This document shows positions 9,879 through 30,027 of a stretch of DNA of 31,489 nt, one piece after another. The DNA is from a virus. Position numbers and translations under genes: made by a program. Each line of letters starts with the position of its first letter. The stretch's first letter is position 1. Under the pieces are notes generated by a model. It searched no databases. It saw only the letters and a list, made by a program, of their open reading frames with translations, and was not told the origin of the DNA. Location of the stretch: IMG/VR virus record IMGVR_UViG_3300032278_000070, positions 1 through 31,489 of that record; one strand, given 5' to 3'.

Positions 9879-11996
9879 GTGCCTGATGATATAAAAGAAT
9901 CTGAAGATCAGACTATGAAGGCCTTTGCTACGTTCAAGGGTAGATTCAAGGCTGACATACAGGCCATCAAGAAGATGGACTCGTCGTTCGGCAACCTTGC
10001 CAAGACTCTGCGAGAGGTAAACGCTGAACTAAGCAAGATGATCGACCGTGGTCGTGACGCTCAGATTTCGTTGCAGGGAGTAGCCCAGTCTGCGGGTGGC
10101 CCCGCACCAACCGCTCCAGTTCAGGGTACTGGTGGGCGTACCAAGGCCGGTGGGACGGGTGGAACCAACGCTCCATTGACCAGCGGAACATGGGGCAAGT
10201 TCACGAACATGCTTGCTGGAGCCGCTGGCCAAACTGGCAAGAACGATCCTTTCGGGGGAGGGAGGGCGTGGGGTCAGGTTGGCCAATGGGTTGGCCAAAC
10301 AGCGGCTGCTGGTATTGGATGGGCTGGGGCACGGGCTGAAGGGGCAGCACCCTACATGCTAACTGCTGATCGTACAGGGATGCTCTACCGTCAGATGTAC
10401 GGTGGCACACAGTTGGAGTATCAGAATAAGTACCGTGCTCCCCTGATGGGCCGTCAGAATGACCCACTGTTATTGGGGAACGGTGGAGTTGAGGCGATGC
10501 TGGGGTTGCAGGCAACTACCGGACTCAACGCCACCCAGATGGCTCAGGGGGTTCAAGGCATCAGGGTGGCCTCTGGGTTTGGCTACTCAACGGGTGCTGC
10601 CAACCAAATGATCTCTGCTTTGGCAGCGCCCGGGTCCTCCAACCTTATGACGATTATGACCGGAATGGGTTTGTACGGCCCGGGTGGTCAGGCCCGAGAT
10701 CCGATGGACGTGATCAGAAACACCGTCCAACGCATGGGCCTGACCGACGAGGACATGGTACAGGGAGCCTTCCAGCCCGGGTCCATGACTAGGGCAAACC
10801 TGAGCCGCTCTGGTCTGCCAGAGGACATGCAGAACTTGGTACTTCAGTACGCCCAGCAGAATCTGGAGTTCCGCAAGAAGGGCGGTGAGGGTATGTACGA
10901 CCCGGCCTCCAAACGTGACCGCCAACGAATGGGTGTAGAGGAGGGCTACGCCACTGAGTTTGAGCGTACACGGGTTGAAGAGACCCGACGGGAGGAGCAG
11001 TTCTATCGTCGTCAGGTTGATAACTACGAGCAGATGGAGGAGAACACTCAGGCATTGATCAGGTTGACTGCGTCCATTGAGGACACGCTGTCCGGTGCTG
11101 TCGGTGCCAAGATAAGTACTACAAATATGTGGCAGATGCGTGCCGCTGGAGGGGTAGGCAAGACACTGGGCCCGCTGTTGACGACGATGGGTGGTTTTTC
11201 GCTTATGGCCTCTGCCGGTCCACAGGCCATCGGATCGGTCCCGGTAGGTCTGGGTCTGATGGCCGCAGGTGGCCTGCTGACAGCAATGTCAGGAGACCCT
11301 GATGACGTGATACAGCCCGGCATGGAAGCAGGGTTCTCAGGAAACCTACGCTCTATGGCCGTGGCTGCTGAGTCGGAGGGCCATGTACTAAGTCTGACAA
11401 GCGGGGTCCGTTCTGAGGAAGAGCAGAGGGCACTGTTCTTGGATAGGCACGACGAGGACCCCAATGGTAATAGGGTGTATAACGGAAAGACGTACAGTCT
11501 CAACGCCGCTGGTCGTGCTAAGGGTTACGCCGCTCCCCCGGGACATTCCCTACACCAGTTGGGTATGGCCGCTGATCTGGGACCACGGTCAGCGTGGCCA
11601 TGGATAGGTGCAAATGCTTCACGCTTCGGGCTACGTGTGGCTGATGGTGAGCCGTGGCATGTAGCCCGCATTGGTGCCAAGGCCCCGGTCGGCACACAGT
11701 TCGGCACTTCAGGCCATAGTGCTGGTTCCAGTCCTACTAAAGCACCACGCGCTGTCGCAGGTACCCTTCCCACCGGCTTGGCTGTTCCAGAGTTGGAACA
11801 GGCCATGAAGGACTCTCACCCGTCAGCGAACCTGATGCAGGGAGACGCTGATTCTGGGGGCTCTGTCATAACCATCTCTCCCACGATACACCTAACAGGG
11901 ACTGGCTCTTCTGCTGCTGACGCCCAGAAACTCGCTAATCAGGTAATCAGGTTGATTGAAACCTCTACCGCTGTAGACACCCTGAGGAGATCGTAA
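9879..11996 (+). CDS. Tape measure protein with C-terminal M15 (VanY-type) peptidase domain
   Basis: A 705-residue protein starting at GTG, with GGAGAG just upstream. The N-terminal part is helical and then Gly/Ala-rich. A charged coiled-coil (RTRVEETRREEQFYRRQVDN onwards) follows. Residues about 429-471 are strongly hydrophobic (Gly/Met/Leu-rich, possibly membrane-inserting). Residues about 490-605 form a D-alanyl-D-alanine carboxypeptidase-type fold: SLHQLGMAADLG supplies H559 and D566, and EPWH supplies E591 and H594, the expected zinc ligands and catalytic Glu. The likely role is to set tail length and, after ejection, cut peptidoglycan locally and open the membrane. The position after the gp26-like chaperone is the standard tape-measure slot. 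At 705 residues it is short, implying a rather short tail. Confidence 0.82.
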   Translation: MPDDIKESEDQTMKAFATFKGRFKADIQAIKKMDSSFGNLAKTLREVNAELSKMIDRGRDAQISLQGVAQSAGGPAPTAPVQGTGGRTKAGGTGGTNAPLTSGTWGKFTNMLAGAAGQTGKNDPFGGGRAWGQVGQWVGQTAAAGIGWAGARAEGAAPYMLTADRTGMLYRQMYGGTQLEYQNKYRAPLMGRQNDPLLLGNGGVEAMLGLQATTGLNATQMAQGVQGIRVASGFGYSTGAANQMISALAAPGSSNLMTIMTGMGLYGPGGQARDPMDVIRNTVQRMGLTDEDMVQGAFQPGSMTRANLSRSGLPEDMQNLVLQYAQQNLEFRKKGGEGMYDPASKRDRQRMGVEEGYATEFERTRVEETRREEQFYRRQVDNYEQMEENTQALIRLTASIEDTLSGAVGAKISTTNMWQMRAAGGVGKTLGPLLTTMGGFSLMASAGPQAIGSVPVGLGLMAAGGLLTAMSGDPDDVIQPGMEAGFSGNLRSMAVAAESEGHVLSLTSGVRSEEEQRALFLDRHDEDPNGNRVYNGKTYSLNAAGRAKGYAAPPGHSLHQLGMAADLGPRSAWPWIGANASRFGLRVADGEPWHVARIGAKAPVGTQFGTSGHSAGSSPTKAPRAVAGTLPTGLAVPELEQAMKDSHPSANLMQGDADSGGSVITISPTIHLTGTGSSAADAQKLANQVIRLIETSTAVDTLRRS

Positions 11997-14353
11997 TGCC
12001 GCACACTGGTGCTACGCACACACCACCGCCGCCGTTTCTCTCAACTGGAGCCCCTGCGGGGTATGCCACACCCGATGAGATTGTTGAAGCCACTTTCCAG
12101 AACCCGAAGTTCAGGGGAATAGGTAGTAGCAACGGTCTGGTTCCCACAGACGGATTGATTCAGCGTGGATACATGCGTCTGCTTACTGAGGTGTTTGAGT
12201 TCCAGAATACTACTAACCCGGTTAATGACGTGAGGAGTTCCTTAAACCACGACCTTGGTACTAAGTTGAACTTCCAGTTCAATCCTAATGAACTTACTAG
12301 GTCAGTGGTAGCCCGTACAGATACGCAGTTGTGGATCAACCAGTCTCCCAGTCAGTTGCTACAGCCCGGCATTGGTGATATGTCCTTCTCTTGGCAGATG
12401 CTGTTCAATCGTGAGGCTGAGGTGCAGAAGGGCAGAGTCTTTGGCAATCGTGACGCATCAGCCTTTGAAACTGACAGCATCACCAACCGTCTTGACGAGT
12501 TCTCCACACAGCAACAGGCGAGTGCAGATACTGCCGCAGAAGAACTGGGGGTGCTGGCCGACATTGCTATTCTGGACAGGATAACTGGTCAGAGCATCAG
12601 TAAGGAAGCCATCCAATATGCACAGGACCGGTATGCCCGTCTGGTGGCCTCTGGTGATATTACAGAGGAGGAGGAAGAGGACGACAAGACTAATATCAGT
12701 GCCCTAGCCGGGGGTGATGTCGCCTCCCTGATGGACATCAACGTACAGAACTCCGCATTCTTGATTCCCAATCCCATTCGTGTGGTGTTCTCTGAGAACT
12801 TCATGGTAGATGGTTATGTGAATAGCGTTACCGTTTCGTTCAAGAAGTTCTCCACCCAGATGGTGCCTACGGTTGCTTTGGTGGACGTTTCTATGCACGC
12901 CATTTATCAGGGCTTCGCCCGCTACAAGTCCACGTTCACCACCATCTTGGAACTGGCACAGAAAGAAAAGAAAGAAGAAGACGGCACTATTCCTCCCGCA
13001 GACCCCGGAACAGGTGCAGCCAAAGTTCAGGATGCAGGTAGGGTCAGCGCAGTACTGGATGGCATTGACCACTCCCCGACTCAGGACTTGAGGTTTACGG
13101 CTGACCGCATACCCAAGGACCCAGAGACAAAACTAGAGCACCACAAGTATGCCTCCACCGACAACCTCACGGTTGATGAGCAGGACGCCAAGCCCTTCAA
13201 GATCGACGGGGGTATTAGTTTTGCTATAATCTCCAGACTAGGCGTTGGTCCTGATGGTGGTGGGGATAAGACCTTGTTGACAATGCACGATAACGATGAG
13301 TTGGTTGTCTCAGATTTGTCCGCTAGGGTTTCTATGGGACTACGCCTTCGTGCGAGACTTAGGCCAATCCAGCAGAGCGGTGGCATCACCCCGAAGGCTA
13401 TGCTAGAGGCTCTGATTGCGGAAGACGTAGTCGATGAGCCGGTTGGACTCGCCCCCGGTTATATTCGGGATTCAGTGTTCTTTGCTATGTGGCCCGAAGG
13501 GCAGAGGAAACTGTTGCTGGCACAGGGGGATGGCATGGACTCGCAACTGGGCAGCAGTGCTACCGTTCATCAACTCTTTAGTGAGTTCGATGGCCAAACC
13601 GTAAGTACCCGTTCGTTTCCTATTACCCACCACGCAAACGGGACGATACTACCTAATGACACTTATGGGGACATGCTAGGAATACACGAAGCGGTGTACC
13701 CTAAGGGAGATGTATACGTAGGTGACTCCGGCGGACCTGCCGTCAAAACCTTCGTAGATAAAGGTGTCTGGATTTGGCTAAACTGGAGAGACGCCTATGA
13801 CGATGAACGTAAGTGGGAAGAGGACGACACGCTGTACTACCTTGCCAAAGGATTCTACAGTCCTAGTGATACCTCATCGTTCCCTTCTGAACTAATAATA
13901 ACGCACAGTGACACTACTAAGAATCTAGTGTTTGAAGTGGACTACCAGATGAACTTGCTGTTCAGGACTCAGTTGGCCTATCAGGGCAACGAAGTAACTG
14001 ACACCGGTTGGTTACGAGTTCACCCTAGGTCTGAGGTTTCTGCCTTTATACCAGACAGTAGCGGCCAGCACGGCCCCGGTAAGAATCTGGACTTGAATGG
14101 TGATTTGGTGGGTAACAAGGCAGTTGGGTTGGGCTTGGATGCTAGGTTTCCGTGGCAGTATGACCAGAGGGGAACGAAACTACACTTTGACGGTCATAAG
14201 GGATTTGGTGGTAACACTATCCCATGGTCATATCAGAATACCAGTTCTGTGATGCTGGGTATTGACTACAGCGTAGGCAGCGTTAGTGTCTACATTTCAA
14301 GTGATCCAGATAAAACTCAGGGGTACGTAGCAGGAGGAAGGAAGGCACACTGA
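11996..14353 (+). CDS. Large tube-initiator / baseplate protein (probable)
   Basis: A 785-residue protein whose ATG overlaps the tape-measure stop by one base. Residues about 85-160 (LNFQFNPNELTRSVVARTDT, then IGDMSFSWQMLFNREAEV) and about 265-310 (FMVDGYVNSVTVSFKKFSTQMVPTVALVDVSM) resemble the tube-initiator proteins that precede LysM-like proteins in contractile systems: a beta-sandwich that continues the tube into the baseplate. A Glu/Asp run occurs near residue 225. The C-terminal half (residues about 350-785) is unrecognised and beta-rich, far longer than typical initiators, and may be an added surface domain. The following LysM-like and hub genes support a baseplate role. Confidence 0.65.
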   Translation: MPHTGATHTPPPPFLSTGAPAGYATPDEIVEATFQNPKFRGIGSSNGLVPTDGLIQRGYMRLLTEVFEFQNTTNPVNDVRSSLNHDLGTKLNFQFNPNELTRSVVARTDTQLWINQSPSQLLQPGIGDMSFSWQMLFNREAEVQKGRVFGNRDASAFETDSITNRLDEFSTQQQASADTAAEELGVLADIAILDRITGQSISKEAIQYAQDRYARLVASGDITEEEEEDDKTNISALAGGDVASLMDINVQNSAFLIPNPIRVVFSENFMVDGYVNSVTVSFKKFSTQMVPTVALVDVSMHAIYQGFARYKSTFTTILELAQKEKKEEDGTIPPADPGTGAAKVQDAGRVSAVLDGIDHSPTQDLRFTADRIPKDPETKLEHHKYASTDNLTVDEQDAKPFKIDGGISFAIISRLGVGPDGGGDKTLLTMHDNDELVVSDLSARVSMGLRLRARLRPIQQSGGITPKAMLEALIAEDVVDEPVGLAPGYIRDSVFFAMWPEGQRKLLLAQGDGMDSQLGSSATVHQLFSEFDGQTVSTRSFPITHHANGTILPNDTYGDMLGIHEAVYPKGDVYVGDSGGPAVKTFVDKGVWIWLNWRDAYDDERKWEEDDTLYYLAKGFYSPSDTSSFPSELIITHSDTTKNLVFEVDYQMNLLFRTQLAYQGNEVTDTGWLRVHPRSEVSAFIPDSSGQHGPGKNLDLNGDLVGNKAVGLGLDARFPWQYDQRGTKLHFDGHKGFGGNTIPWSYQNTSSVMLGIDYSVGSVSVYISSDPDKTQGYVAGGRKAH

Positions 14354-14604
14354 TGGCTGTAACTCCCTCCTCCCGGTACACCCAGATCACAGACTCCAAT
14401 GGTAGGGCCGTTGTCCAGCGTAAGGCTAGGGTCAACAGCCATTACTCCACGGTGGTGTCTGTTCAGGATCAGTCCCTTCAGGACATCGCTGCAAAGTGGT
14501 TGGGTAACGCCAGCCTGTACTGGCGTATCGCTGATCTGAACCCACAGGTGCTTTACCCGGATGAGGTTCCCATGGGGACTCGCCTACGCATACCAACGGT
14601 GTAG
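14353..14604 (+). CDS. LysM-like baseplate protein (gpX/gp53 type)
   Basis: An 83-residue protein. The C-terminal 45 residues read VQDQSLQDIAAKWLGNASLYWRIADLNP and then DEVPMGTRLRIPTV, the pattern of a LysM fold as in P2 gpX: a strand, an IA..W.G helix, a YWRIADLNP helix and a final RLRIP strand. These proteins usually bridge tube initiator and hub rather than bind free peptidoglycan. It overlaps the upstream stop by one base and lies directly before the hub gene. Its short length and position fit gpX well. Confidence 0.82.
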   Translation: MAVTPSSRYTQITDSNGRAVVQRKARVNSHYSTVVSVQDQSLQDIAAKWLGNASLYWRIADLNPQVLYPDEVPMGTRLRIPTV

Positions 14605-14607: not shown

Positions 14608-15816
14608 ATGGTCTTGGTGAACACCCCAACGCAGTTCGGTACCGCAAAGCATACGATAGACGTAGAGATTGCGGGGTTCAATGCTGCGCCCGTAGAGCGT
14701 GTGGACATAAACCTACGTGAGAACGAGCACGATCATGTGCGCTTCGTCCTTGCAGGTATCTCTCCCCTGTCGATAACTGACTACATAGGCGTTCCCGTCA
14801 AGGTGACCGTGGGGGTAGGGTACAGCGCTGGGTTCACCTTCTGTGGTTATATTAACAGTGTCAAACCATCTCATACGGTATCTAGCGGTATTGCTCAGGG
14901 GAGCCTACTTCAGGAGGCTTGGGTAGACTGCTTGGGCGCTAGTGCGAATATGCGTGGTAGGAAGAACAGGGTATGGCCCAGTAACGGGGAGAACTTCAAG
15001 GTGCTGGACATGGTTAGCGAGTTGGCTAGTGACTACGGTCTGTCCTACTCCTGTCCCGACAGTACTATGGTTATCCCTCGTAAGGTGCAGAAGGGTGTGT
15101 CAGACTGGGCTATCCTAGCGAAATCCTGTGTGGATTCTGGATTGGCTGTCAACCTACACGGTAGTGAAATCCACGTGTGGGACCCCTACACAGCCATACG
15201 ATACGGTGCGCCATCCTTCACCCTCCAGACCGTGTACACCGTAGGTGGTCCTGCCATTGCCCAACCCGGTCGTATCATGGAGTTCGATGGTACCTTCGGG
15301 ACAGCCCACGAATACGGGGATGTGAACGAGGCATCTATGGCCATTCTGGATGCGGACAGTCAGTTACTCACTGCCTCTTCAACAGAACTTCTGGGTAGCA
15401 CAGGTTACGGGGAAGACCTTTCGTCAGGCCTCAAGGACGTGCTGTCCGTGGAGGCTCTCTCTATGGCCGACGCTCGTAGGAAGTTGACCGCAACTAGGGC
15501 CTACTCTGATGCCTTCGTGGCCAAGGTGTCCACTACCGGTGTTGCGGGACCAGTGCCCGGAAGTGTCGTAGGTGTTGAAGGGTTCAGCAGCGACTTCGAT
15601 GGTGCTTGGTTGGTACGTGAGATGAACATGAAGTTCAACGATGGCAACTTCGTGTCCGAGTTCGGACTCTCACGTAGTACAACCGGGAAGGGGTACACTG
15701 GGCTACCAGTACTACGTGCCTACCTAGAACCTGATGCCCCCAAACTGGTACCGGGCAAGTTGGGGACTCCTGAGTGGAGGTCCTCTACTATGAGAGCACG
15801 AGTCTATGCATACTGA
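14608..15816 (+). CDS. Baseplate hub protein (gp27 / phage late control D-like)
   Basis: A 402-residue protein resembling gp27/gpD and the N-terminal part of VgrG. It has HTIDVEIAGFNAAPVERVDINLRENEHDHVRF at the N-terminus, then an IGVPVKVTVGVGYSAGFTFCGYINSV strand pair, as in hub ring domains. A middle VSDWAILAKSCVDSGLAVNLHGSEIHVW segment is the usual 'W..L..L....G' signature of this family. The C-terminus has SVVGVEGFSSDFDGAWLVREMNMKF. It forms the trimeric ring that carries the central spike. It overlaps the spike gene by 11 bases, so the two are probably made in equal amounts. Confidence 0.85.
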   Translation: MVLVNTPTQFGTAKHTIDVEIAGFNAAPVERVDINLRENEHDHVRFVLAGISPLSITDYIGVPVKVTVGVGYSAGFTFCGYINSVKPSHTVSSGIAQGSLLQEAWVDCLGASANMRGRKNRVWPSNGENFKVLDMVSELASDYGLSYSCPDSTMVIPRKVQKGVSDWAILAKSCVDSGLAVNLHGSEIHVWDPYTAIRYGAPSFTLQTVYTVGGPAIAQPGRIMEFDGTFGTAHEYGDVNEASMAILDADSQLLTASSTELLGSTGYGEDLSSGLKDVLSVEALSMADARRKLTATRAYSDAFVAKVSTTGVAGPVPGSVVGVEGFSSDFDGAWLVREMNMKFNDGNFVSEFGLSRSTTGKGYTGLPVLRAYLEPDAPKLVPGKLGTPEWRSSTMRARVYAY

Positions 15817-18244
15817 TTCTCATATAACTGATTCTCTATACACCTCCTACTCACAGATCCATCGGGCCGTAGTACAGTACTCCAGTACCACAACGGGTGA
15901 GATTCATGTGATCATCCCTACAGTTACAGGGCTTGACACCTCCATCCCAGTCTCATACTTCGGTAGGGAAGCGCACCCGTTTGAGAACGACTGGGTGGTG
16001 CCCAATGTGGGGGCCAGCATCATCGTCTGTCGTGAGGACGAGGACTACACCAGCGTCTTCTGGATCAACACCACCTACAACCCGGTGCGGGCCGACGTAG
16101 GCGAGTCCAACCCATCCAACTACAACTTCGGCCCCAGCGGATCGGAGTCAATCTTCGACCTGTCTGACTGGGCAGGGCACCCTACATCTGCGGGCTTGTA
16201 CTTGGGCTCCATCTACATGGGGTTCCACACAGGCTCCAACGGGTCCGACGGGTGGCGTACCTACATGGACTACACCGGTAAGTTCTACTTGAAGGGTAGT
16301 GGTACCAATACCTTGACATGGGACGGCTCAACTTTGGCGGTGACCGGGACGGTTACTGCTACTGCTGGGGAGATCGGGGGCTGGACCATTGATGCGGACT
16401 CCCTGTACTCAGGCACCAAAGACACCAGTGGGTACGCCGATGGTGGGGGTATCACCATCTCTAGCGGGGGGTCTATCCACGCCAAGCAGTTCTACATAGA
16501 CACCTCTGGTAACGCATTCTTCAAGGGTGATTTGACTGGCGCTAACATCACCGGGACCACAGGCACCTTCACTGGTAGTATCACAGGGGCTTCGGGGACG
16601 TTCACTGGAAGCATCACAGGGGCCTCAGGTACGTTCACTGGGTCGATCACCGGTGCTTCGGGTACCTTCGGAGGGGCATTGTCCGGGGCCAGCATCAGTG
16701 CTGGAACCATCTCTGGTGCTGCTATCACTGCTGGGTCTATCAACGTCCCTGCAATCAGTCCTAAGTTCACAGTCGCTGATACTGGGGCGGTGACTGCGTC
16801 AGACTTGACACTCACCGGAACGGTTACAGCCACTAGCGGGATTATCAATGGTGCTGCCCTCGTAGGTGGGACCATCACAGGTTCCACCATCCTTGTACCG
16901 GGTACTGGAGCAGACGCGGATACTCTTATGAGGTTGTCGAATAGTGGAACCACCGCGTTCCTAGAACTTGAGGTGGAGGATCAGACGGTGGCCGGTTACA
17001 TAGCCATCAACCGAGTGACTTCCCCCTCCGTTCATTCCAATCTTCAGATACTTGCGCCCGCTATGGAGGGGTCCACTCGCCCCGGTATGACCATCAAGCA
17101 TTACGTCGGGGGCGGTTCCTACGTCAACATCGGAACTGACGACAGCAACCCACAGATACTTCTAGAGGATACAGGGACTGGCACCGCCACCATTAGGGGA
17201 GACGGTGCTGTCAGTATTGAATCACCGGACATTTCGCTGGGTACAGCCGACACCCACTTTGTGTCTGTGCCCCACAACGGAATCGAACTGGAGAACAGTG
17301 CTCCATCTACCACAACCAACAGGTTGTACAACCAGAGCGGAACACTGAAATGGGATGGGTCTGCGGTTGGTGGGGGTACCACCTACACGTTCTCCTCCCC
17401 CCTGTCGGAGTCCAGCGGGACGGTCAGCATCGACCTCTCCGGGTATTCAACTACCAGTCATAACCACAGTGGTGTGTACGCTACATCAAGCCACAACCAC
17501 AGCGGTACGTACCTTGAACTTGGCGGCGGGACGATGACCGGAACCCTCAACTTGGGAACGGGCACAAAGAGGATAGAGGGTGGCTCCGGTGGTGGTTTGA
17601 TGATCGACTCTTCAGGTAGCGCCTATCTGCGTGCGAATAATGAGGCCAACTATGGAGTGACCGCTTGGACGGGTGGTCATACAACCATCTACAACGGAAC
17701 TACCCCTAGGATCGTTACAGCAACTAGTTACAACATATGTTATGAAGATTGGGTTCCTGATACTACTGATGAGTGGAACCTCGGTTTCAGTACTGGCGCT
17801 CTTAAGTGGAAGAACCTGTATTTATCGAATAATGTGTACACACATGATGGTGGCGTCCACGTTTCAGATGTTTCGCAGAAGACAGATGTTGTAGATTCCA
17901 TCCTCGGCCTTGATTTCATAAATGCTGTACGTCCTGTATCATACAAGTGGGTTGAGACTGAAGGCAGGTCCGGTGTTAGAACTCATCATGGCTTTATTGC
18001 TCAAGAAATAGAGGCTGTGCTTGGAGATGATGCCACCGCTATGGCTTTGTGGTGCAATGTTCATCAGCCAGCGCTTGCAGCGGAAGAACTACCTGAGGGA
18101 CAAGTCATGGCAGCCGTGGACGAGTCGTATACCCAGTCGCTACGCTACACGGAACTTGTCCCCGTTATTACTAAAGCATTACAGGAAATATCAACTAAAC
18201 TAGATGCGGCAGAAGCCCGCATAGCAGTACTGGAGTCAGCATGA
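15806..18244 (+). CDS. Baseplate spike OB-fold fused to a long fibre with C-terminal S74 chaperone
   Basis: An 812-residue protein. Residues about 13-95 (RAVVQYSSTTTGEIHVIIPTVTG, then WVVPNVGASIIVCREDED, then VFWINTTY) have the gp5-type OB-fold pattern of central spikes. Residues about 100-690 are a long beta-rich shaft, including GTFTGSITGAS repeats near residues 253-296, a hinge of SHNHSG repeats near 550-570, and many Thr/Ser/Gly strands. Residues about 687-812 are a Peptidase_S74 chaperone: S687 and K692 (SDVSQK), then HHGFIAQEIEAV and a C-terminal coiled-coil (LDAAEARIAVLESA). The S74 domain trimerises the shaft and then cleaves itself. A single gene therefore links the baseplate centre to a receptor-binding-like fibre. 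The last part of the gene is noticeably more A/T-rich than the rest. Confidence 0.8.
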   Translation: MHTDSHITDSLYTSYSQIHRAVVQYSSTTTGEIHVIIPTVTGLDTSIPVSYFGREAHPFENDWVVPNVGASIIVCREDEDYTSVFWINTTYNPVRADVGESNPSNYNFGPSGSESIFDLSDWAGHPTSAGLYLGSIYMGFHTGSNGSDGWRTYMDYTGKFYLKGSGTNTLTWDGSTLAVTGTVTATAGEIGGWTIDADSLYSGTKDTSGYADGGGITISSGGSIHAKQFYIDTSGNAFFKGDLTGANITGTTGTFTGSITGASGTFTGSITGASGTFTGSITGASGTFGGALSGASISAGTISGAAITAGSINVPAISPKFTVADTGAVTASDLTLTGTVTATSGIINGAALVGGTITGSTILVPGTGADADTLMRLSNSGTTAFLELEVEDQTVAGYIAINRVTSPSVHSNLQILAPAMEGSTRPGMTIKHYVGGGSYVNIGTDDSNPQILLEDTGTGTATIRGDGAVSIESPDISLGTADTHFVSVPHNGIELENSAPSTTTNRLYNQSGTLKWDGSAVGGGTTYTFSSPLSESSGTVSIDLSGYSTTSHNHSGVYATSSHNHSGTYLELGGGTMTGTLNLGTGTKRIEGGSGGGLMIDSSGSAYLRANNEANYGVTAWTGGHTTIYNGTTPRIVTATSYNICYEDWVPDTTDEWNLGFSTGALKWKNLYLSNNVYTHDGGVHVSDVSQKTDVVDSILGLDFINAVRPVSYKWVETEGRSGVRTHHGFIAQEIEAVLGDDATAMALWCNVHQPALAAEELPEGQVMAAVDESYTQSLRYTELVPVITKALQEISTKLDAAEARIAVLESA
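16562..16693 (+). repeat. 33-bp tandem repeat in the fibre shaft
   Basis: Units of 33 bases (11 codons, GTFTGSITGAS) begin at 16562, 16595, 16628 and 16661, the last one diverged. The sequence differs at third codon positions between copies, so the amino-acid repeat is being kept while the DNA drifts. Further, more degenerate Gly/Thr repeats continue downstream in the shaft. Confidence 0.8.
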
Positions 18245-18972
18245 TACCTACAACCAAGAGCAGCGTAGACCTTTCACTACTACACCCCCGCTTTAAGCAG
18301 CGGCTGGAGGCATTCTTTGCGGACCCCCGCATTAGCGGGCGTGTCTCCATCTCCTCGGGCTGTCGTTCCTACGCACAACAGATGTACTTCTACAAGAGGT
18401 ACCTCAAGGGCGGGAACCTAGCGGCCAACCCCGACAGAAGGTTTGGTCCTAAAGCCTTGAATGGTGTTGGGATCTGGAGAGGAAGTTGGCATATGTCTCA
18501 GGACGATGGTTTTTGCTATGCGGTTGACTTCCATCGCCTGAACAAGGACCTAGCCACATGGGAAATCAACGCCATTGCCAAGGAGTACGGGCTACATCCC
18601 ACCGTTGACGGAGAGTGGTGGCACCATCAGCCTCGTGCCTCAACAGAATGGTTCGATGCCCCGGCTATGGGCAAGAAGCCAGCCAAAGAGGAGAAGAAGG
18701 AGCCCAAGACGGACTGGGCAGCCGTCGTCCTGTACGTACAGAGTTTGTACACTATGGTTAGTACTGCTCCTCTTAAGAGGGGTAGTCGTAACGAGGCAGT
18801 TCGGGTGATGCAGCGTAAACTAGGTGAGATAGGCATTAATGCCGGGACACCGGACGGTATCTTTGGTAGAATGACTACTAGGGCAGTTAAACGGTACCAG
18901 CGGGTGAACAAACTCACAGTAGACGGAATCGTTGGCCCAGCCACATGGGCCAAACTAATAGTAGAGGGTTAA
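18241..18972 (+). CDS. M15 peptidase with PG_binding_1 domain (endolysin or tail hydrolase)
   Basis: A 243-residue protein. Residues about 30-140 are an M15-type metallopeptidase: SWHMSQ gives H84, CYAVDFH gives D96, and EWWHHQ gives E125 and H128, the Zn-ligand and catalytic set. Residues about 140-160 are a Lys/Glu/Pro linker. Residues about 180-240 are a PG_binding_1 three-helix domain (LKRGSRNEAVRVMQRKLGEIG, then DGIFGRMTTRAVKRYQR, then VDGIVGPATWAKL). It would cut peptide stems in peptidoglycan. Its ATG overlaps the spike stop by 4 bases. It lies inside the baseplate block, about 4 kb from the holin-like gene, so it may be the endolysin or a baseplate-bound hydrolase. No signal peptide is visible, which fits holin-dependent release. 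Confidence 0.88.
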   Translation: MIPTTKSSVDLSLLHPRFKQRLEAFFADPRISGRVSISSGCRSYAQQMYFYKRYLKGGNLAANPDRRFGPKALNGVGIWRGSWHMSQDDGFCYAVDFHRLNKDLATWEINAIAKEYGLHPTVDGEWWHHQPRASTEWFDAPAMGKKPAKEEKKEPKTDWAAVVLYVQSLYTMVSTAPLKRGSRNEAVRVMQRKLGEIGINAGTPDGIFGRMTTRAVKRYQRVNKLTVDGIVGPATWAKLIVEG

Positions 18973-18973
18973 G

Positions 18974-19399
18974 TTGCGTACCATTTCTGTACCGTTCACG
19001 TTCTCTGGGGGGTCCCTCCAGAACACTGACGATCCACATAAGATTGCTCGTCAGGAGATCATCAACGTACTGATGACTGAGCAGTACGAGCGTGTCATGG
19101 CCCCCGGGTACGGAGCATCTACTACTAGACTGTTGTTCACAACCTTGGACAACCTAGTAGTAGCGGACTACAAGGAGGAGGCACTGGCCATGCTAAATAG
19201 TAATACGTCCAACTGCTCTGTTCGTTCACTATCAATCACAGACCAGCCAGAGTCTGTACCTCAGGGTGGGGGTACTGAAGACCCACAGTCCACACTCTAC
19301 GTTAACGTCACGTACAAACTTAATGGAGACCCAACTTCCTCCACCATGTCTGTGTCTATTGCCACCCCAGACGCACTCAACGTATTCTCTCCGATCTAA
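18974..19399 (+). CDS. Baseplate wedge protein (gp25-like)
   Basis: A 141-residue protein starting at TTG 18974, two bases after the upstream stop. It opens with PFTFSGGSLQNTDDPHKIARQEIINVLMTEQYERVMAPGYG, the GPW_gp25 pattern, including ERVMAPGYG as the equivalent of the conserved EPR-type segment. The C-terminus is beta-rich. gp25-like proteins join the tube to the wedges and help start sheath assembly. Placement directly before a gpJ-like gene is the usual order. TTG as a start is uncommon but the N-terminus fits the family well there. Confidence 0.85.
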   Translation: MRTISVPFTFSGGSLQNTDDPHKIARQEIINVLMTEQYERVMAPGYGASTTRLLFTTLDNLVVADYKEEALAMLNSNTSNCSVRSLSITDQPESVPQGGGTEDPQSTLYVNVTYKLNGDPTSSTMSVSIATPDALNVFSPI

Positions 19400-19408: not shown

Positions 19409-20902
19409 ATGGCTACTGACTACACCAGCAGGGACTTTGAGTCCGTCAAGGATGATCTAATCCGTCGTGCTAGGGCAACCATACCTGAGTGGTCACGGGG
19501 AGGGTCTTCTGACTTTGCCATGGTGCTGGTGGACCTATGGTCCTACATTGCTGACATCCAGAACTACTATGTGGACAAGGCCCACAACGAGTCTTTCCTG
19601 TCAACAGCCACGCAGGTTGGATCGGTACATGCTCTCGCTCGTATTCTTGGGTACAACCCCAATCAACGAGTAGCCGCCTCGTCCACGGTGCGACTATACA
19701 ACAGTTCTGCCGCAGTCATCACTATCCCCAAGGACACACAGTTCGTGGTGCCTGCGACCAGTTCCACGTCTACCATTTACTTTGCGTCCACAGGGGCTGT
19801 GGACATTGATGCGTCCACCACCTCAGGCGCAGGTATACCGGTCGCCGTACTGGAGGGACGGTACGTGGAGGAAACCATCACCCTCAACTACCTAGGTGGT
19901 GCAGGGGGCACCTTCATGCTATCAGAGAAGAAGGTTATTCCAAACTCACTGTCCCTCCTCGTGGGAACCACCACCTATCAGTACACCCCGCGTCTCACAA
20001 ACATTGCTTCCGACACCCCTGCGTTCACCACAATGACGGATAGTTCAGATAGTACCGTTGTGGTTCTGGGCAATGGAATCAACGGGCTGGTACCCCCCTC
20101 GGGCAGCACCATCACGGCCACCTACCGGGTGGGTCAGGGCGTTCTGGGTAATGTGGTGGCTAATGCTATAACTGCACTGGACAGCCCCGTCACCCACATA
20201 TACATCAACAGTTCCACGGCTGGTGTAGGGGGCAACGACCCCGAGTCCATCACGTCCATTAAGGCAAACGCCCCCACCCTACGCAGGTCACAGGACCGGG
20301 CAGTCACGCTGGCGGATTACACCTCGTTGATACAGGGATTCTCTGGTGTCACCAAGGCATACGCCATTAGTTCAGTAGCCTCTGGTGCGGTAACGGTGAA
20401 CTACGTTGCTTTACCCAACTATCCAGACTTTGAAACGCGCGATAGTGGCACTGCTTTGTCCCTCACGGCAGACTTCGGCACCGCAGGTACAGAGATCCAC
20501 AGTAACTTGGGTACGTACCTTTCAGGTAGGTCGGTACTAGGTGTGACTGTGAATCAGATCAGCACCACCATCAACTTCTCAAACGTGTACGTTGACTTCA
20601 GTTCGGTGGTAGTGAAGGATGGGTACTACCAGACAGAGGTGAAGAATAATATCACTTCTGCCATTCAGGCCCTGTTCACATGGGACGCTGTGGAGTTCAA
20701 CCAGATCGTCAAGCGTAGTTTGATAGAGTCAGCCGCCAACGCTGTTGCTGGGGTTACAAGTGTTACGTTGAGTAACCTAGGATCTTCGGGGGGTGGCTCT
20801 AGTCTGGGAGACTACACCATTACTGCAACGAATGCTAGCCAAGTGTACCTGCCTGTTATCCGTACAATCACCTACGCTGGAGTTACCGGGGGCGTCTCCT
20901 AA
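19409..20902 (+). CDS. Baseplate wedge protein (gpJ / gp6-like)
   Basis: A 497-residue Baseplate_J-type protein. It begins DYTSRDFESVKDDLIRRARATIPEW, then MVLVDLWSYIADIQNYYVDKAHNESFL, then LARILGYNPNQRVAASSTVRL, the typical N-terminal run of this family. The middle part is beta-rich. The segment ESITSIKANAPTLRRSQDRAVTLADYTSLIQGFSGVTKAYA is a second family hallmark. It forms wedge dimers that surround the hub. AGGAAA precedes the ATG. The next gene starts on the last base of this stop codon. Confidence 0.93.
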   Translation: MATDYTSRDFESVKDDLIRRARATIPEWSRGGSSDFAMVLVDLWSYIADIQNYYVDKAHNESFLSTATQVGSVHALARILGYNPNQRVAASSTVRLYNSSAAVITIPKDTQFVVPATSSTSTIYFASTGAVDIDASTTSGAGIPVAVLEGRYVEETITLNYLGGAGGTFMLSEKKVIPNSLSLLVGTTTYQYTPRLTNIASDTPAFTTMTDSSDSTVVVLGNGINGLVPPSGSTITATYRVGQGVLGNVVANAITALDSPVTHIYINSSTAGVGGNDPESITSIKANAPTLRRSQDRAVTLADYTSLIQGFSGVTKAYAISSVASGAVTVNYVALPNYPDFETRDSGTALSLTADFGTAGTEIHSNLGTYLSGRSVLGVTVNQISTTINFSNVYVDFSSVVVKDGYYQTEVKNNITSAIQALFTWDAVEFNQIVKRSLIESAANAVAGVTSVTLSNLGSSGGGSSLGDYTITATNASQVYLPVIRTITYAGVTGGVS

Positions 20903-23091: not shown

Positions 23092-23346
23092 ATGGAATAC
23101 ATTGTCGGAGCATTGGCGGTCACCAAGACCGTCCACCTTCTGGAACTGGCCCTACCACGAGCCGTTATGCCTTGGGTTAAGGTTGTGGCCGGTGTGGTCC
23201 TCGGGTACGGTGTGTCAGCACTACTGGGCACCCCCAACTTGATTGTTGACGGGCTGGTGGTCGCTACGCTAGCATCGGGAGCCCACGGGGTGCTACGCTT
23301 ACTGACCTTGCTGGGTGATCTTGTAATACGTCGCACCATTCGATAG
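23092..23346 (+). CDS. Small membrane protein, probable holin
   Basis: An 84-residue, strongly hydrophobic protein. Likely membrane segments are residues about 28-46 (VKVVAGVVLGYGVSALLG) and about 51-77 (IVDGLVVATLASGAHGVLRLL), with a third possible one near residues 3-20. It has a basic C-terminus (VIRRTIR). The size, number of membrane segments and basic tail fit holins, which release endolysins at lysis time. No family motif is specific enough for certainty. It stands alone between the baseplate and replication modules. Confidence 0.65.
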   Translation: MEYIVGALAVTKTVHLLELALPRAVMPWVKVVAGVVLGYGVSALLGTPNLIVDGLVVATLASGAHGVLRLLTLLGDLVIRRTIR

Positions 23347-23356
23347 GGAGCAGAAC

Positions 23357-24124
23357 ATGGCTGAAGTCAAGAACTACGTAGTTGTCGGGCGAGGTGACGC
23401 CCCGGGCGACGTGATCTCAGCGGGCCTGAGGGACTTGGGCAGGGACACCCACTTCTACGTCCCGTGGATGGGTGGCAAGTCCACGGAGCCAACGGCAGGG
23501 ATGAAGAAGGTCTACGACTTCCTAGTGGACGATGACGCTACGTTCACCATTCTGGCTAAGGTGAGGGACATGCCACACCCTGCTCTCCTGAGTAAGTGCA
23601 TCGTGGTGAAGGAGAGTGGCTCTGATCAGCCAGACCTCAACTTCGACAATGTACCGCCCGACTCCACGGCGCTGGTGCTGTGGGACTCGGAGGACGCCGT
23701 TGGCCATGAGTGGCTCTCTTGCGAGTACTTCGACCGGGGGCACCCCCTGCTGGACCTGACCAACGGACTGATACCTATCACGGTGGAGTCCACGACACCC
23801 ACCGTCGTGGATCAGAAGGACGAGATAGAACCTCTCACCGACGAGGACCTTGAGGCCATGCCTCCCGGGGTCAGGAAGCAGTTGGACAAGTCCCTTGGGG
23901 ACACCCCTGTGGTAGACGAGGATGTACAGGATTCTGAGGAGATGGAATCCGACATTGAGGAAATGGAGGCCAAGATCCTCCAGTTCGTCAACAAGGAGAA
24001 GGAAACCGACGAGTCACAGTATGCCACTATGGTCGTGGTACTTCCGACGGGTAGATCCTTCACCACGTCGATACCCCTCTTGAACGTGTGGGACCTCTTG
24101 AACACGGTGGTGTGGTCTGAGTAG
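23357..24124 (+). CDS. Unknown acidic protein with N-terminal Rossmann-like part
   Basis: A 255-residue protein that I do not recognise. It begins VKNYVVVGRGDAPGDVISAGL, a strand-loop-helix start like a Rossmann fold. The central part reads FYVPWMGGKSTEPTAGMKKVYDFLVDDDATFTIL and ALVLWDSED. Residues about 160-220 are very acidic and helical (DEDVQDSEEMESDIEEMEAK), likely disordered or coiled-coil. A C-terminal small beta part (YATMVVVLPTGRSFTTSIPL) follows. It has no membrane segment or cysteine motif. It is the first gene after the holin-like gene, and its stop is 26 bases from the next ATG. I cannot assign a function. Confidence 0.7.
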   Translation: MAEVKNYVVVGRGDAPGDVISAGLRDLGRDTHFYVPWMGGKSTEPTAGMKKVYDFLVDDDATFTILAKVRDMPHPALLSKCIVVKESGSDQPDLNFDNVPPDSTALVLWDSEDAVGHEWLSCEYFDRGHPLLDLTNGLIPITVESTTPTVVDQKDEIEPLTDEDLEAMPPGVRKQLDKSLGDTPVVDEDVQDSEEMESDIEEMEAKILQFVNKEKETDESQYATMVVVLPTGRSFTTSIPLLNVWDLLNTVVWSE

Positions 24125-24126
24125 GC

Positions 24127-24150
24127 CCTCTGAGCGGAAGGCATCAGAGG
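24127..24150 (+). promoter_or_regulatory. Perfect 7-bp palindrome at the start of the winged-helix gene
   Basis: CCTCTGA (24127-24133) is the exact reverse complement of TCAGAGG (24144-24150), with a 10-base loop that holds GGAAGG (24136-24141), the likely ribosome-binding site. The ATG at 24151 follows directly. It could act as an RNA hairpin controlling translation, or as a DNA operator bound by the HTH protein it precedes. Both are inference from the sequence. Confidence 0.55.
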
Positions 24151-24810
24151 ATGTCCACTTTCGGAAAGTACCCGGTGTGGGTGCAGTCAAAGTTGAGAGG
24201 TAACTTCTCAGCGATAGCCACACTGGTGGAACTGGTGGTCCTCATGGACCACAACACATACCGTACTACCATAAGTTCGGCCAGACTGGCTGAGAGACTG
24301 GGATGCTCAACCAGCACGGTAAAGAGATCATTGGCTACGCTGCTAGACGAGGGAGTGATCTCCCGTCACTATGGCTACCGTAAGACCGGTGTGTACAAGG
24401 TGAACATGGAGGACCCCGTGGCTGTCGATGACTGGGACGAGTTGGAAACCCTAGGTGAAGACACTGACAAGAGTGAACCCACTCAGAAGTCTTCAGGGGG
24501 TAGGTTGGCCCGGCTGGTAACGTATTTCAGGACAGAGGTAGAGATGCTGAACCCCATGTCCATCCAGTCTCAGGTGAACGGCAAGGCACTCAGCAAGCAC
24601 TTCAAGGACATGCTTGACACTCACGGTCTGAGTGAGTACGACATCAAGCGTATGATCACCGTGTTTGCTGGGGAACTTGGGGGCACTGGTAAATCTGATG
24701 TGCCCGCATGGAAGGCTTTCCTAGCCAACCGCCAAGCATTATTGAATAAGGTTAACAGGGGCAAGATAGACGTGGTGTTTATTGACGATGGAAGGCCAGA
24801 GGGTGTCTGA
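24151..24810 (+). CDS. Winged-helix DNA-binding protein, DnaD-like / replication initiator type
   Basis: A 219-residue protein. Residues about 39-84 are a winged helix (TTISSARLAERLGCSTSTVKRSL, then EGVISRHYGYRKTGVYKV), as in HTH_36 proteins and phage replication initiators. Residues about 95-115 are an acidic linker. The C-terminal part (residues about 115-205) is helical (RLVTYFRTEVEMLN, LSEYDIKRMITVFAGELGG), loosely like DnaD/DnaB-II domains. It is followed by an AAA+ loader and a DnaB-like helicase, so a role in origin recognition or helicase loading is likely. The preceding palindrome hints at autoregulation. Confidence 0.75.
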   Translation: MSTFGKYPVWVQSKLRGNFSAIATLVELVVLMDHNTYRTTISSARLAERLGCSTSTVKRSLATLLDEGVISRHYGYRKTGVYKVNMEDPVAVDDWDELETLGEDTDKSEPTQKSSGGRLARLVTYFRTEVEMLNPMSIQSQVNGKALSKHFKDMLDTHGLSEYDIKRMITVFAGELGGTGKSDVPAWKAFLANRQALLNKVNRGKIDVVFIDDGRPEGV

Positions 24811-25471
24811 GCCAATACGTAGTACCCGCTGGCTCAAGGGCCAGACCATTGATGAGCGCACCGAGTCCGCTTGTATCCCTTTGTCCCTTACAGGCGCACG
24901 CCTAGAAAACTATGACGTGGAGCGTGGGGACAAGTACGCCCACGACACCGTGTTCAAATGGCTACGGAACTACGAGGACCACAGGGAGAAGGGTATCGGC
25001 TTACAGTTGGTAGGAACACACGGATCAGGTAAGACCCATCTGGCGGTCGCTGCTCTACGTGCTGCCATCCGGTCCTATCGGCAGTGTGGTCGCTACATCA
25101 CTACCAACAACTACATTCGTGCTCTGGATGAGTCTAGGAACAATGACGGGGTCCTACCCGACAACTATCCTGACGGTAACCTTCTCCATTATCTTCGTTC
25201 TGCTTACGACGTGGTAGTTCTTGACGATGTAGATTCTGTCAGGGACACGGAGTTCGCTAGACGTGAACTGACCGACCTACTGGAGTCCCGGGTCCAGAAC
25301 AAACTAGTTACCATTGTCACGCTGACCAACAAGAGGGACCCAAACCAGCCAACAGAGTCTCCCCTGATTATGGCAGTCAACGCTAAGTTCGACTCCCTTG
25401 TGCGTGGTACCAGCCTTGCGGTTTCTATCGTAGATAGCGCTGATCAGAGGAGTAGGCCAGTTGGAAGGTAA
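24788..25471 (+). CDS. DnaC-like AAA+ helicase loader
   Basis: A 227-residue AAA+ ATPase. It has Walker A at G76-T83 (GTHGSGKT), Walker B at V142-D147 (VVVLDDVD), and a later arginine region (LVRGTSLAVSIVDSADQRSR). This is the usual compact arrangement of phage DnaC-type loaders that place the hexameric helicase on DNA. I chose ATG 24788, which overlaps the previous gene by 23 bases; TTG 24782 and GTG 24803 are alternatives, and none has a clear ribosome-binding site. Flanking winged-helix and helicase genes support the assignment. Confidence 0.85.
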   Translation: MEGQRVSEPIRSTRWLKGQTIDERTESACIPLSLTGARLENYDVERGDKYAHDTVFKWLRNYEDHREKGIGLQLVGTHGSGKTHLAVAALRAAIRSYRQCGRYITTNNYIRALDESRNNDGVLPDNYPDGNLLHYLRSAYDVVVLDDVDSVRDTEFARRELTDLLESRVQNKLVTIVTLTNKRDPNQPTESPLIMAVNAKFDSLVRGTSLAVSIVDSADQRSRPVGR

Positions 25472-25904
25472 CAACATTCACCCAGAAGCCCCCATCAAAC
25501 AGGCCTGTCTGTTTGAGGGTGTCTTGGCTGCACCTCCTACCAAAGTGGTGCAGAAGATGAGAGCAGCAACTGCTGCCCGTCAACATGAGTGGCACAGGTA
25601 CATCGGCATGTGGCAACCACATGAGTTGCCTATCAAGTCTCTGATTGATAGTGTCCTACGACGTGGAGTCGGGGTTGAGGTATACACTATGCTTCCAGCA
25701 GGCGCTGATAACGCCATCGACGGGTGGTTGGCCCGTAAGGGCGTGTCCGTCCCGGTCTACCTCTTTGCTGACATCAACGAGATTCGTGAGGAAATGAAGT
25801 ACCACAGTCCGTCCATGAGGGTACACGTGGCCACAGAGGAGCAGGCACGCATCTTGGGTATTAGAGCAAGGGTGGCGTCACCCTCTAGGGAGTGGGTCCT
25901 GTAG
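25461..25904 (+). CDS. Unknown protein between loader and helicase
   Basis: A 147-residue protein starting at TTG 25461, with AGAGGAG at good spacing upstream and an 11-base overlap with the loader gene. It contains CLFEGVLAAPPTKVVQ near residues 16-30. The C-terminal part is conserved in character: VEVYTMLPAGADNAIDGWLARKG, then VPVYLFADINEIREEMKYH, then VHVATEEQARILGIRARVASPSREWVL. The layout faintly recalls HAD-type hydrolases, but the DxD motif is missing, so I do not assign that family. It lies between loader and helicase, so a replication-related role is possible. Confidence 0.65.
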   Translation: MEGNNIHPEAPIKQACLFEGVLAAPPTKVVQKMRAATAARQHEWHRYIGMWQPHELPIKSLIDSVLRRGVGVEVYTMLPAGADNAIDGWLARKGVSVPVYLFADINEIREEMKYHSPSMRVHVATEEQARILGIRARVASPSREWVL

Positions 25905-27172
25905 TGGCCAGTGCTGAACACCTCCTTATCAGTAAGGTACTATCAGACGGGTCCCTCTCAGAAGCGATAGCACAGGGGGTACAGGCTGTCCACTTCTCCG
26001 TCCCAAACCAGCCAATCTGGTCGTGGATGCTGGAGTTTTGGCAGAAGCATGGGTCTGTCCCAACCCAGAGGGTCATGCAGGACGAGCACCCATCTGTCAC
26101 AGTCGGTGACTCATCTGGAGAGACACTCAGTCGTCTGGTAGACGAGGTCATAGAAGGTCACCGCAGTACCACCGTGACTGGATTGATGACCGAGGCTCTG
26201 GTGAGTCTCAAGGATGGGAACACAGAAGGGGCGATACGTCACCTGTCATCGGGTCTACAGGATGTTTCCGCAGTAACATCACAGTCCAAGGACGTGGATC
26301 TGATTAGTGAGTGGGAGGATAGGCTCAGTAAGTACGCCGACATGCGGGATAGACCAGATGAGTTAATAGGATTGTCCACTGGCTTCCCGGGGCTAGATAG
26401 GTTGACAGCAGGCATTAGGCCGCAACAGTTGATCACCTTCGTGGGTGAGGCCAAGCGGGGTAAGTCCATGCTTGCGATGGTCATGGCGGTATCCGCTAAT
26501 ACCAATGGTGTGTCACCCCTGATGGTGTCCTTTGAGATGAGTGCGGAAGAGCAGGCGGCTAGGTATGACTCCTTCGTGGCCAAGGTATCCCATACTGGCC
26601 TTATGCGTGGAATGTCCACCAAGGACGAGGTGGCTCGCCTAGACAAGGCTCTACGGATGAGGAAGAACAGGAGCCCGTTCCGTATTGTTGAGGACATTGC
26701 GTCCAGCACCACGGTGTCCAGTCTCTCTGCGAAGATCAAGCAGCATGAGCCCGGCATCGTGTTTGTGGATGGGGTGTACATGATGGACGACGAGCACGGG
26801 GAACCCAAGGGTAGCCCGCAGGCCCTGACCAACATCACCAGATCACTCAAGCGTCTGGCACAGCAATACAAGGTACCCATCGTGGTGACCACTCAGGTTC
26901 TGGCCTCCAAGTTGAGCAGTCGTACCAGCAGGCGTGTTACTGCTGACGCCATCGGTTACTCTTCTTCGTTTGTGCAGGACTCTGACATAGTCATGTCAGT
27001 GGAACGGGACCCTGACTATGACGACCGTTCTATCGTTAGGGTGCTCCTGTCCCGTACCTCCCCACACGGTGAGGTAACCATCAAGTGGGACTGGGACACG
27101 ATGGACTTCTCAGAGATAGGTGACGACGACGACTACGAGGCTGAGGATAGTGATGATTTCAACGACTGGTGA
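25904..27172 (+). CDS. Replicative DNA helicase, DnaB-like
   Basis: A 422-residue protein from GTG 25904, which overlaps the upstream TAG by one base; the GTG at 25892 would leave no room for the AGGGAG ribosome-binding site. Residues about 1-105 are a helical DnaB-type N-terminal domain (HLLISKVLSDGSLSEAIA onwards). The RecA-type core follows, with GEAKRGKS (G181-S188) as Walker A, VSFEMSAEEQAARYDS as the segment with the catalytic-Glu motif, PGIVFVDGVYMMDD as Walker B, and PIVVTTQVLASKL as motif H3. The C-terminus is very acidic (DDDDYEAEDSDDFNDW). It unwinds the fork as a hexamer. Loader before and primase after are the expected neighbours. Confidence 0.9.
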   Translation: MASAEHLLISKVLSDGSLSEAIAQGVQAVHFSVPNQPIWSWMLEFWQKHGSVPTQRVMQDEHPSVTVGDSSGETLSRLVDEVIEGHRSTTVTGLMTEALVSLKDGNTEGAIRHLSSGLQDVSAVTSQSKDVDLISEWEDRLSKYADMRDRPDELIGLSTGFPGLDRLTAGIRPQQLITFVGEAKRGKSMLAMVMAVSANTNGVSPLMVSFEMSAEEQAARYDSFVAKVSHTGLMRGMSTKDEVARLDKALRMRKNRSPFRIVEDIASSTTVSSLSAKIKQHEPGIVFVDGVYMMDDEHGEPKGSPQALTNITRSLKRLAQQYKVPIVVTTQVLASKLSSRTSRRVTADAIGYSSSFVQDSDIVMSVERDPDYDDRSIVRVLLSRTSPHGEVTIKWDWDTMDFSEIGDDDDYEAEDSDDFNDW

Positions 27173-28073
27173 TGCCCTAGTGGAAGTGCTGTCCAGAATG
27201 GGCGTGAACATAACGACCGTAGGTGACTCAGAGATTGGGGGTCACTGTCCAGTACACGTGTACACCACTGGACGTGAGGACGGCAGCCCCTCTTGGTCCA
27301 TGAATAGTAATACCGGTCTGTGGATATGCTATTCCTGTGGTGCAAGGGGTAATCTGCCCCATCTGGTGTCCACATTGACTGGCAGCAGCGACGATGTTAC
27401 CGAGGTCAACCAGTTCATACTAGAAACCGGGCTGGATAGCCTGCGTGAGGGAAACACCCCGCAGGATAGCCCACCCCCAAAGCCAGACGTGGACGCCTTT
27501 AGGAGGTTCACTGAGGTCCCTGAACAGTTGTTGCATCACCGTGGTATCAATCAAACCACCGCCTACCGCCATGGCATCAGGTGGGACCCAAAGCCACGTC
27601 ATTGGATCATCCCGATCATGTCACCCCGGGGGGACCTATGGGGATGGCAAGCCAAGGGTAAGGGTTACTTCAGAAATGTACCCACGGGTGTAAGTAAGTC
27701 CCAAACCTTGTTCGGACTGCACCTGTTCAGAGCACACACAGCAGTACTGTTGGAGTCACCTCTGGACGTAGTGCGTCTGGCCTCTGTGAGATTGGGCATG
27801 GGTGTACAGGGTCTTGCTACGTTCGGAGCATCCGTGAGCAAGGAACAGATGTCCTTAGTGTCTCGCCGGGCTGATACAATAGTAATAGCGCTTGACAACG
27901 ACGAAGCAGGTATCTGTGCTGCTGAGAGGGTCGCTAGGGAATGTCCTAGGCCCCGCAAAGGCATTACTTTCCTGCGCTACGAACATACTAATGCGAAGGA
28001 TATTGGCGACATGACGAACGATGATATAGAAGGTGCTATAACTGGCACCTCCCCGATCCCATGGTGGCTGTGA
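27153..28073 (+). CDS. DNA primase, DnaG-like (CHC2 zinc finger and TOPRIM)
   Basis: A 306-residue primase. The N-terminal zinc ribbon has C32, H35, C59 and C62 (CPVH, then CYSCG). The TOPRIM core has LLESPLDVV (E201) and ALDNDEAG (D248, D250), the metal-binding set. Between them GINQTTAYRHGIRWDPKPRHWIIPI fits the RNA-polymerase-like N-terminal part. I chose ATG 27153 because GAGG lies 6 bases before it; the frame is also open further upstream. It overlaps the helicase gene by 20 bases. At about 306 residues it lacks a separate C-terminal helicase-binding domain. It makes primers for lagging-strand synthesis. Confidence 0.9.
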   Translation: MISTTGDALVEVLSRMGVNITTVGDSEIGGHCPVHVYTTGREDGSPSWSMNSNTGLWICYSCGARGNLPHLVSTLTGSSDDVTEVNQFILETGLDSLREGNTPQDSPPPKPDVDAFRRFTEVPEQLLHHRGINQTTAYRHGIRWDPKPRHWIIPIMSPRGDLWGWQAKGKGYFRNVPTGVSKSQTLFGLHLFRAHTAVLLESPLDVVRLASVRLGMGVQGLATFGASVSKEQMSLVSRRADTIVIALDNDEAGICAAERVARECPRPRKGITFLRYEHTNAKDIGDMTNDDIEGAITGTSPIPWWL

Positions 28074-29611: not shown

Positions 29612-30027
29612 TGGACGACTGCGAGTGGACCGAGGGTGACGACGCCGCATTCAATCTGCGGCTCGTGCAGGAATACAAGGCTGCCAAGGAGATGGCCGAT
29701 ACATCAAAGAAGCGTGCCGATGGACTAAAGTCGCAACTGATAGAACTAGTGGACGAACGTGGGTATGAGGGGGAGAATGGGCACCGCTGGTTTGAGGTGG
29801 GGGACCACAAACTGAAGAGGGAGCGTCGGGTCAGTACCATCTTCGACTCAGAGGCCTGTGAGGCGTGGGCCAAGGAGCAGGGTAAGGAGATGTGGGATAA
29901 GGTCAGCGAGGTGGTGGAGGTGCTTGTGGAGGACAAGGTTCTTGGGCTAGCATGGGACCATCCTGACATGCGGGACATCGTGAACGGGTTCTACATAGAA
30001 CGAGAGACATGGGCGTTTAAGGCATGA
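29608..30027 (+). CDS. Unknown small protein with helical N-terminus
   Basis: A 139-residue protein overlapping the helicase gene by 4 bases (ATGA). Residues 10-50 are helical and charged (LVQEYKAAKEMADTSKKRADGLKSQLIEL), like a short coiled-coil. A beta part follows (YEGENGHRWFEVGDHKLKRERRV), then more helix. It has no cysteine or membrane motif. A second ATG at 29611 is equally possible. Its position among replication genes suggests an accessory role, but I do not recognise the family. Confidence 0.7.
   Translation: MMDDCEWTEGDDAAFNLRLVQEYKAAKEMADTSKKRADGLKSQLIELVDERGYEGENGHRWFEVGDHKLKRERRVSTIFDSEACEAWAKEQGKEMWDKVSEVVEVLVEDKVLGLAWDHPDMRDIVNGFYIERETWAFKA

Follow-up and report, generated by a model that had tools for sequence, protein, structure and literature searches.

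The viral record IMGVR_UViG_3300032278_000070, a linear stretch of 31,489 bases that is likely a fragment and that we refer to in full as the window, carries on its plus strand an 812-amino-acid (aa) open reading frame (ORF) with an ATG start (15,806–18,244), which joins an OB domain, a long fibre and a Peptidase_S74 chaperone and which we propose to be the central spike-fibre of a contractile tail. The ORF starts inside the final 11 nt of the hub ORF (14,608–15,816), with which it shares an 11-nt overlap. Its first part is the OB domain, the putative tube plug (residues 16–93; 15,851–16,084), identified with AlphaFold2, Foldseek and homology to stand-alone OB genes. There follow, on the same strand, a first fibre module (NPSNYNFG...WRTYMDYTGKFYLKGSGTNTLTWDG; 16,106–16,360) common to the long-fibre relatives and to the fibre of a locus with an unrelated neighbourhood (L011), a short tandem repeat of GTFTGSITGAS-type units (16,546–16,669; period 33/66 nt in Tandem Repeats Finder), two HxH (SHNHSG) motifs found by motif scan at residues 552 and 563 (17,459–17,500), and the Peptidase_S74 core (PF13884; residues 687–740; 17,864–18,025), for which cleavage is predicted before S687 with K692 as the second catalytic residue. 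The residues between the OB and S74 domains are fibre-like, and the same layout occurs in the full-length relatives L003, L005, L006, L012, L013, L025 and L027. An earlier note on this DNA had read the ORF as a single gene joining a gp5-type OB domain to a long fibre and an S74 chaperone, and this anatomical claim is confirmed. The window protein has no Pfam match to a C-terminal triple beta-helix needle domain (Gp5_trimer_C or similar), for which reason we do not class it as a needle spike, and Pfam places no lysozyme domain in its 812 aa.

Because tblastn searches of 50,697 phage records with the window N-terminus (175 aa) and with the window hub returned no match for either query, relatives were gathered by scanning viral contigs with the N-terminus and with the hub. 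The loci comprise the window's own fibre clade (L003–L010 and L012–L029) and a more distant sister clade (L030–L042); several of them are overlapping or near-identical contigs. A phmmer search of the PDB with the whole 812-aa protein gave nothing useful. Judged by sheath and J, the closest cultured phages are the Streptomyces myophages BRock, LuckySocke, Alone3, GiJojo and pSt2308 (~112–116 kb), and the window clade is without a cultured close relative.

The first 97 residues of the window protein match no Pfam or PHROG profile. An AlphaFold2 model built from an 11-sequence alignment places five short strands at residues 18–26, 33–36, 47–49, 71–76 and 84–87, a stretch in which 10-residue blocks have a predicted local distance difference test score (pLDDT) of 48–82, mostly 62–82. 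The best Foldseek matches of this domain in the PDB are spikes of contractile systems, with the PlPVC1 central spike at E = 7.5e-4 and AFP, R2 pyocin, AlgoCIS, A-1(L) and PVC among the further top matches, while VIA-align recovers an OB barrel of the generic OB/cold-shock fold over residues 12–93 (Z 6–7). A non-OB fold, which the earlier note had named as a refutation, was thus returned by none of the three methods, and the fold evidence by itself argues moderately for an OB domain of the spike type. A profile of the stand-alone OB genes from the sister clade matches the window OB domain at E = 2e-22 (the best of 3,300 shuffled control sequences reached E = 0.005), hhalign gives 99.4%, and the stand-alone genes are 32–41% identical to the window domain. 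One of them (L037) lies over the cut-off of Phage_base_V (PF04717; 24.2 against 23.8), and five others match this family below the cut-off. Since the window N-terminus is homologous to these genes, it belongs to the spike OB family, in agreement with its earlier assignment to the gp5 type, and we set the domain border at about residue 93 because the stand-alone proteins end there. Against the PDB, the OB-family profile gives no more than a faint match to P2 gpV (E = 1.3).

At the other end of the protein, PF13884 matches residues 687–740 with 45 bits (cut-off 22), and the sequence SDVSQK at residues 687–692 preserves the SDxxxK catalytic motif described for S74 (PMC10769870), with S687 and K692 in place as the earlier note had specified. 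All eight full-length S74-bearing proteins examined keep the S-x4-K spacing, which recurs in T5 pb1 (Ser1264/Lys1269; PMC4690869). In one fibre-clade locus, L018, the position of S74 is taken by Peptidase_G2 (E = 5e-35), which is likewise a self-cleaving chaperone. This contig (L018:1-6056; NYZR01000039.1), a fragment of a phage tail region, was placed in a Candidatus Pacearchaeota metagenome-assembled genome, probably through a binning error; L018 being a phage contig, we rejected its bin as evidence of a host. S74 occurs twice each in the window and in the fibre-clade records G013 and G014, as well as in G001, G002 and G012, and nowhere in the four sister-clade records examined. The second S74 protein of the window (1149–2669; 506 aa) has collagen-like repeats and lies closely after the major head gene, and a second S74 ORF of ~460–515 aa is found roughly 11–13 kb from the hub in several fibre-clade records; it may be a fibre of the head or an additional one of the tail.

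Between these two ends the protein is highly variable. Full-length fibre-clade proteins range from 401 to 946 aa, a more than twofold spread, and the middle of the window spike cannot be aligned to L012, L025 or L027, whereas comparison of the window with its fibre-clade relatives gives 58–85% identity for the OB domain and mostly 50–77% for the genes adjoining the spike. Window residues 1 to 184–222 match L003, L006 and L013 at 65–68%, whereas the last ~150–210 residues match L012, L025 and L027 at 38–48%; the gene is therefore a mosaic, in which the tip-chaperone part has been exchanged independently of the base. Long members contain the module GLYLG..MGY..W[KR]TYMD..G.FYL.G one to four times, and it also appears in the L011 fibre. 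The description of the fibre as repeat-rich consequently holds for part of it, namely the 33-nt repeat at 16,546–16,669 and the module present up to four times in relatives, but not for the fibre as a whole. A conserved base, a variable modular shaft and an exchangeable tip with its maturation domain are the usual signature of receptor-binding fibres, and the mosaicism and length variation seen in these comparisons fit a receptor-binding role. Were the axial fibre instead a passive structure, a needle for piercing or a spacer to keep distance, with no binding of a receptor, it would agree with the membrane-piercing action of known spikes, with cyanophage Syn33 gp5, which is 859 aa long without S74, and with the two HxH motifs, since HxH marks the metal site in the needles of spikes, for instance in Sf14 gp47 (PMC11821841). 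We consider this unlikely in view of the length variation, the mosaic sequence and the independently exchanged C-terminal parts; moreover, the HxH motifs are not conserved among relatives and lie ~120 residues before the predicted cleavage site rather than at the tip.

The proposed spike-fibre gene is embedded in a baseplate cluster, of which the following genes are likewise on the plus strand. Upstream are a small LysM/tail-X-like baseplate protein (14,353–14,604; phrog_7145, phrog_46) and the 402-aa gp27/VgrG-like hub (14,608–15,816; phrog_52, E = 2.7e-9; Foldseek). The low-confidence hub model, which is best in its N-terminal half, has 19 Foldseek matches at E ≤ 1e-3, all of them hub or spike proteins of contractile systems or phage tails and including VgrG, spikes of extracellular contractile injection systems, the MC58 tail protein and T4 gp27; the sister-clade hub matches Phage_GPD below the cut-off. 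From these matches we assign the ORF that precedes the spike-fibre to the gp27/VgrG/gpD hubs. Directly after the spike-fibre, between it and gp25, lies a gene for a peptidoglycan-binding, endolysin-like protein (18,241–18,972; PF01471, phrog_2649), a close homologue of which is present in all five fibre-clade records examined and in none of the four sister-clade records examined. It is followed by a gp25-like wedge protein (18,974–19,399; phrog_43, with PF04965 below the cut-off), a gp6/J-like wedge protein (19,409–20,902; phrog_219, PF04865) and, downstream, a possible gpI-like gene with a weak match. Past the latter, the window (23,092–31,489) holds no obvious side-fibre genes; a holin-like ORF is followed by replication genes. 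Between the tube and hub genes, a 705-aa protein (9879–11,996) contains a VanY-type (M15) peptidase domain, and wall-cutting may, from its sequence, be built in there.

The slot between hub and gp25-J is conserved across related phages and is filled in three ways. In the sister clade, a short gene for an OB domain alone (about 78–141 aa, mostly about 78–98 aa, with a short coiled-coil-like tail in L040/L041) stands between a hub of 385–389 aa and a gp25 of 136–138 aa. In the Streptomyces myophages, the OB domain carries a further ~120 aa; BRock has the order hub (annotated as late control D), gp130, gp25, J, and its 210-aa gp130 belongs clearly to Phage_base_V (E = 1.2e-8). In the window's clade, the slot holds the OB domain with fibre and chaperone (401–946 aa). 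Profile comparison of the window OB group with the Streptomyces spike OB domain by hhalign gives 4%, which is not significant, and the link between the two relies on the shared slot and the stand-alone group. The ~120-aa C-terminal domain, seen in the Phage_base_V proteins of the Streptomyces myophages at L043:11116-11721 and L044:9252-9884, also occurs in Streptomyces phage Rowa (31% identity), and may be a host-binding domain. In the hub tree, the fibre clade forms one group (98/98) apart from the stand-alone clade. The simplest history would be that an OB-only or short-tailed spike gained the fibre and chaperone together with the wall-active neighbour; alternatively, the sister clade may have lost them, as the tree is rooted only at its midpoint.

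With the OB-family profile, every one of the seven records searched, including relatives of 100, 97, 68, 60 and 57 kb, yields a single copy, and a PF04717 search of these records matches the same places only. PAAR gave no match over the cut-off in the records tested; its weak sub-threshold matches in one record were rejected as a candidate. A separate spike gene, the other refutation named beforehand, was thus found neither in the window nor in relatives of up to 100 kb, none of which is known to be complete. These data bear on the possibility that the protein is a peripheral side fibre, with the OB domain as a baseplate adaptor and the true central spike encoded elsewhere, an arrangement suggested by the usual occurrence of fibre-S74 proteins as side fibres or tailspikes and by the fragmentary state of the window. 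It is made quite improbable by the single OB copy in records of up to 100 kb, by the direct homology of the domain to stand-alone slot genes that have no fibre to attach, and by the overlap of the spike-fibre gene with the hub gene. One could also suppose the N-terminus to be no more than a generic OB barrel, on a tailspike of the ordinary sort without relation to gp5/gpV. This is very hard to maintain: VIA-align does place cold-shock and IF1 folds level with spikes (Z 6–7 alike, so that the OB family is not discriminated) and the window has no direct Pfam match, but contractile spikes are the best Foldseek matches, the homology chain to Phage_base_V members is significant, and the slot is conserved across the fused, stand-alone and Streptomyces groups.

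The gene probably codes for a contractile-tail central spike whose usual needle (and, by comparison with T4, the lysozyme as well) has given way to a long trimeric fibre. In the proposed mechanism, the OB domain (residues 16–93) would form a trimer under the hub and close the tail tube, and residues ~95–686 would make up a fibre that is trimeric, modular and beta-rich and that follows the tail axis. The S74 domain (residues 687–812) would fold the trimer and then cut itself off before S687, exposing a tip that most likely contacts the host surface, either first or together with wedge-borne fibres, and that may have a role in triggering. Contraction would then drive the tube behind the fibre, with wall cutting supplied by separate peptidoglycan-active proteins. 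Several observations weigh against this interpretation. The window OB domain has no PF04717 match even at E ≤ 10, such that its link to Phage_base_V is one step removed, and its model is modest (mean pLDDT 54.5 overall, about 60–80 in the OB part). A device that pushes a tube through an envelope is, in mechanical terms, poorly served by an axial fibre of several hundred residues, and a second spike may lie outside the 31.5-kb fragment or the incompletely known records of its relatives.

Contractile tails are described with a rigid needle at their centre for piercing and with peripheral fibres for recognising the host. In the phages described here, the centre of the tail probably makes contact with the host cell and recognises it, and so does more than pierce it, a functional claim that comparative evidence renders plausible and supports in part. 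More tentatively, and less probably than not, the whole clade may have made its spike, once a membrane needle, into its principal receptor-binding fibre, one that matures itself, with axial contact sensed before contraction and tips swapped at this locus. The three states of the slot in related phages are naturally occurring variants with which to study what is essential to a contractile spike, whether contact on the axis can be a trigger, and in what way the contracting tail might pass or discard a central fibre. The spike-fibre is moreover a predicted host-range gene in phages that lack a cultured close relative. The open-access literature searched yielded no account of an S74 fibre joined to an OB spike, which is not proof of absence.

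Compared with known systems, the window protein resembles T4 gp5, P2 gpV and the R2 pyocin spike in having an OB domain just under a gp27-type hub and a gene within the baseplate cluster, but those spikes continue as a rigid triple beta-helix needle (in T4 with lysozyme also), neither of which has a match in the window protein; the A-1(L) central spike, by contrast, shows PF22178, below the cut-off. BRock gp130 and its relatives occupy the same slot of hub, OB protein, gp25 and J, but at 210 aa gp130 consists of an OB and a ~120-aa domain, with neither long fibre nor S74. Cyanophage gp5 was considered as a precedent for the union of OB and S74 and rejected, Syn33 gp5 being long but without S74. 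To our knowledge, none of T5 pb1, the K1F endosialidase, the phi29 appendage and the Bdellovibrio MAT fibres is joined to a baseplate-spike OB domain. Like the window protein, they end in a C-terminal intramolecular chaperone of a self-cleaving family (S74 or Peptidase_G2), in the case of S74 with SDxxxK (PMC10769870, PMC4690869). By contrast, characterised spikes such as Sf14 gp47 and that of phage 7-7-1, gp112, have the form of rigid beta-helical needles (PMC11821841, PMC12796354).

Lambda gpJ is a trimeric axial fibre below the hub of a non-contractile tail, whose tip binds the receptor (PMC7291167), and it resembles the axial host-binding fibre proposed here; hub and fibre are one polypeptide in gpJ, whereas the window hub is a separate gene (14,608–15,816), and the spike-fibre may work like gpJ by analogy without being a member of the gpJ type. 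Bacillus phage Vp4 has a predicted 2,033-aa central spike with carbohydrate-binding modules, Gp111 (PMC11406892), a myophage spike predicted to unite a puncturing N-terminus and a host-binding C-terminus in one protein. Compared by description, Gp111 has carbohydrate-binding modules and coiled coils, with no S74 mentioned in the parts of the account consulted, whereas the window protein has a beta-rich modular fibre and a predicted self-cleaving chaperone. The earlier view that this central spike is itself a receptor-binding-like fibre thus agrees with the slot, the mosaicism and the length variation, but is not unprecedented, given Gp111 and lambda gpJ, and on the whole the earlier interpretation is partly supported. 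The same two precedents make the idea of a host-binding axial spike credible; its parts have been met before, and the architecture of an OB spike with an S74 fibre appears to be new. In Deep-Blue, a relative of Vp4, the puncturing and host-binding parts are separate genes (Gp188 and Gp186; PMC11406892), and the fused state in Vp4 and split state in Deep-Blue parallel the fused and stand-alone states among the window's relatives.

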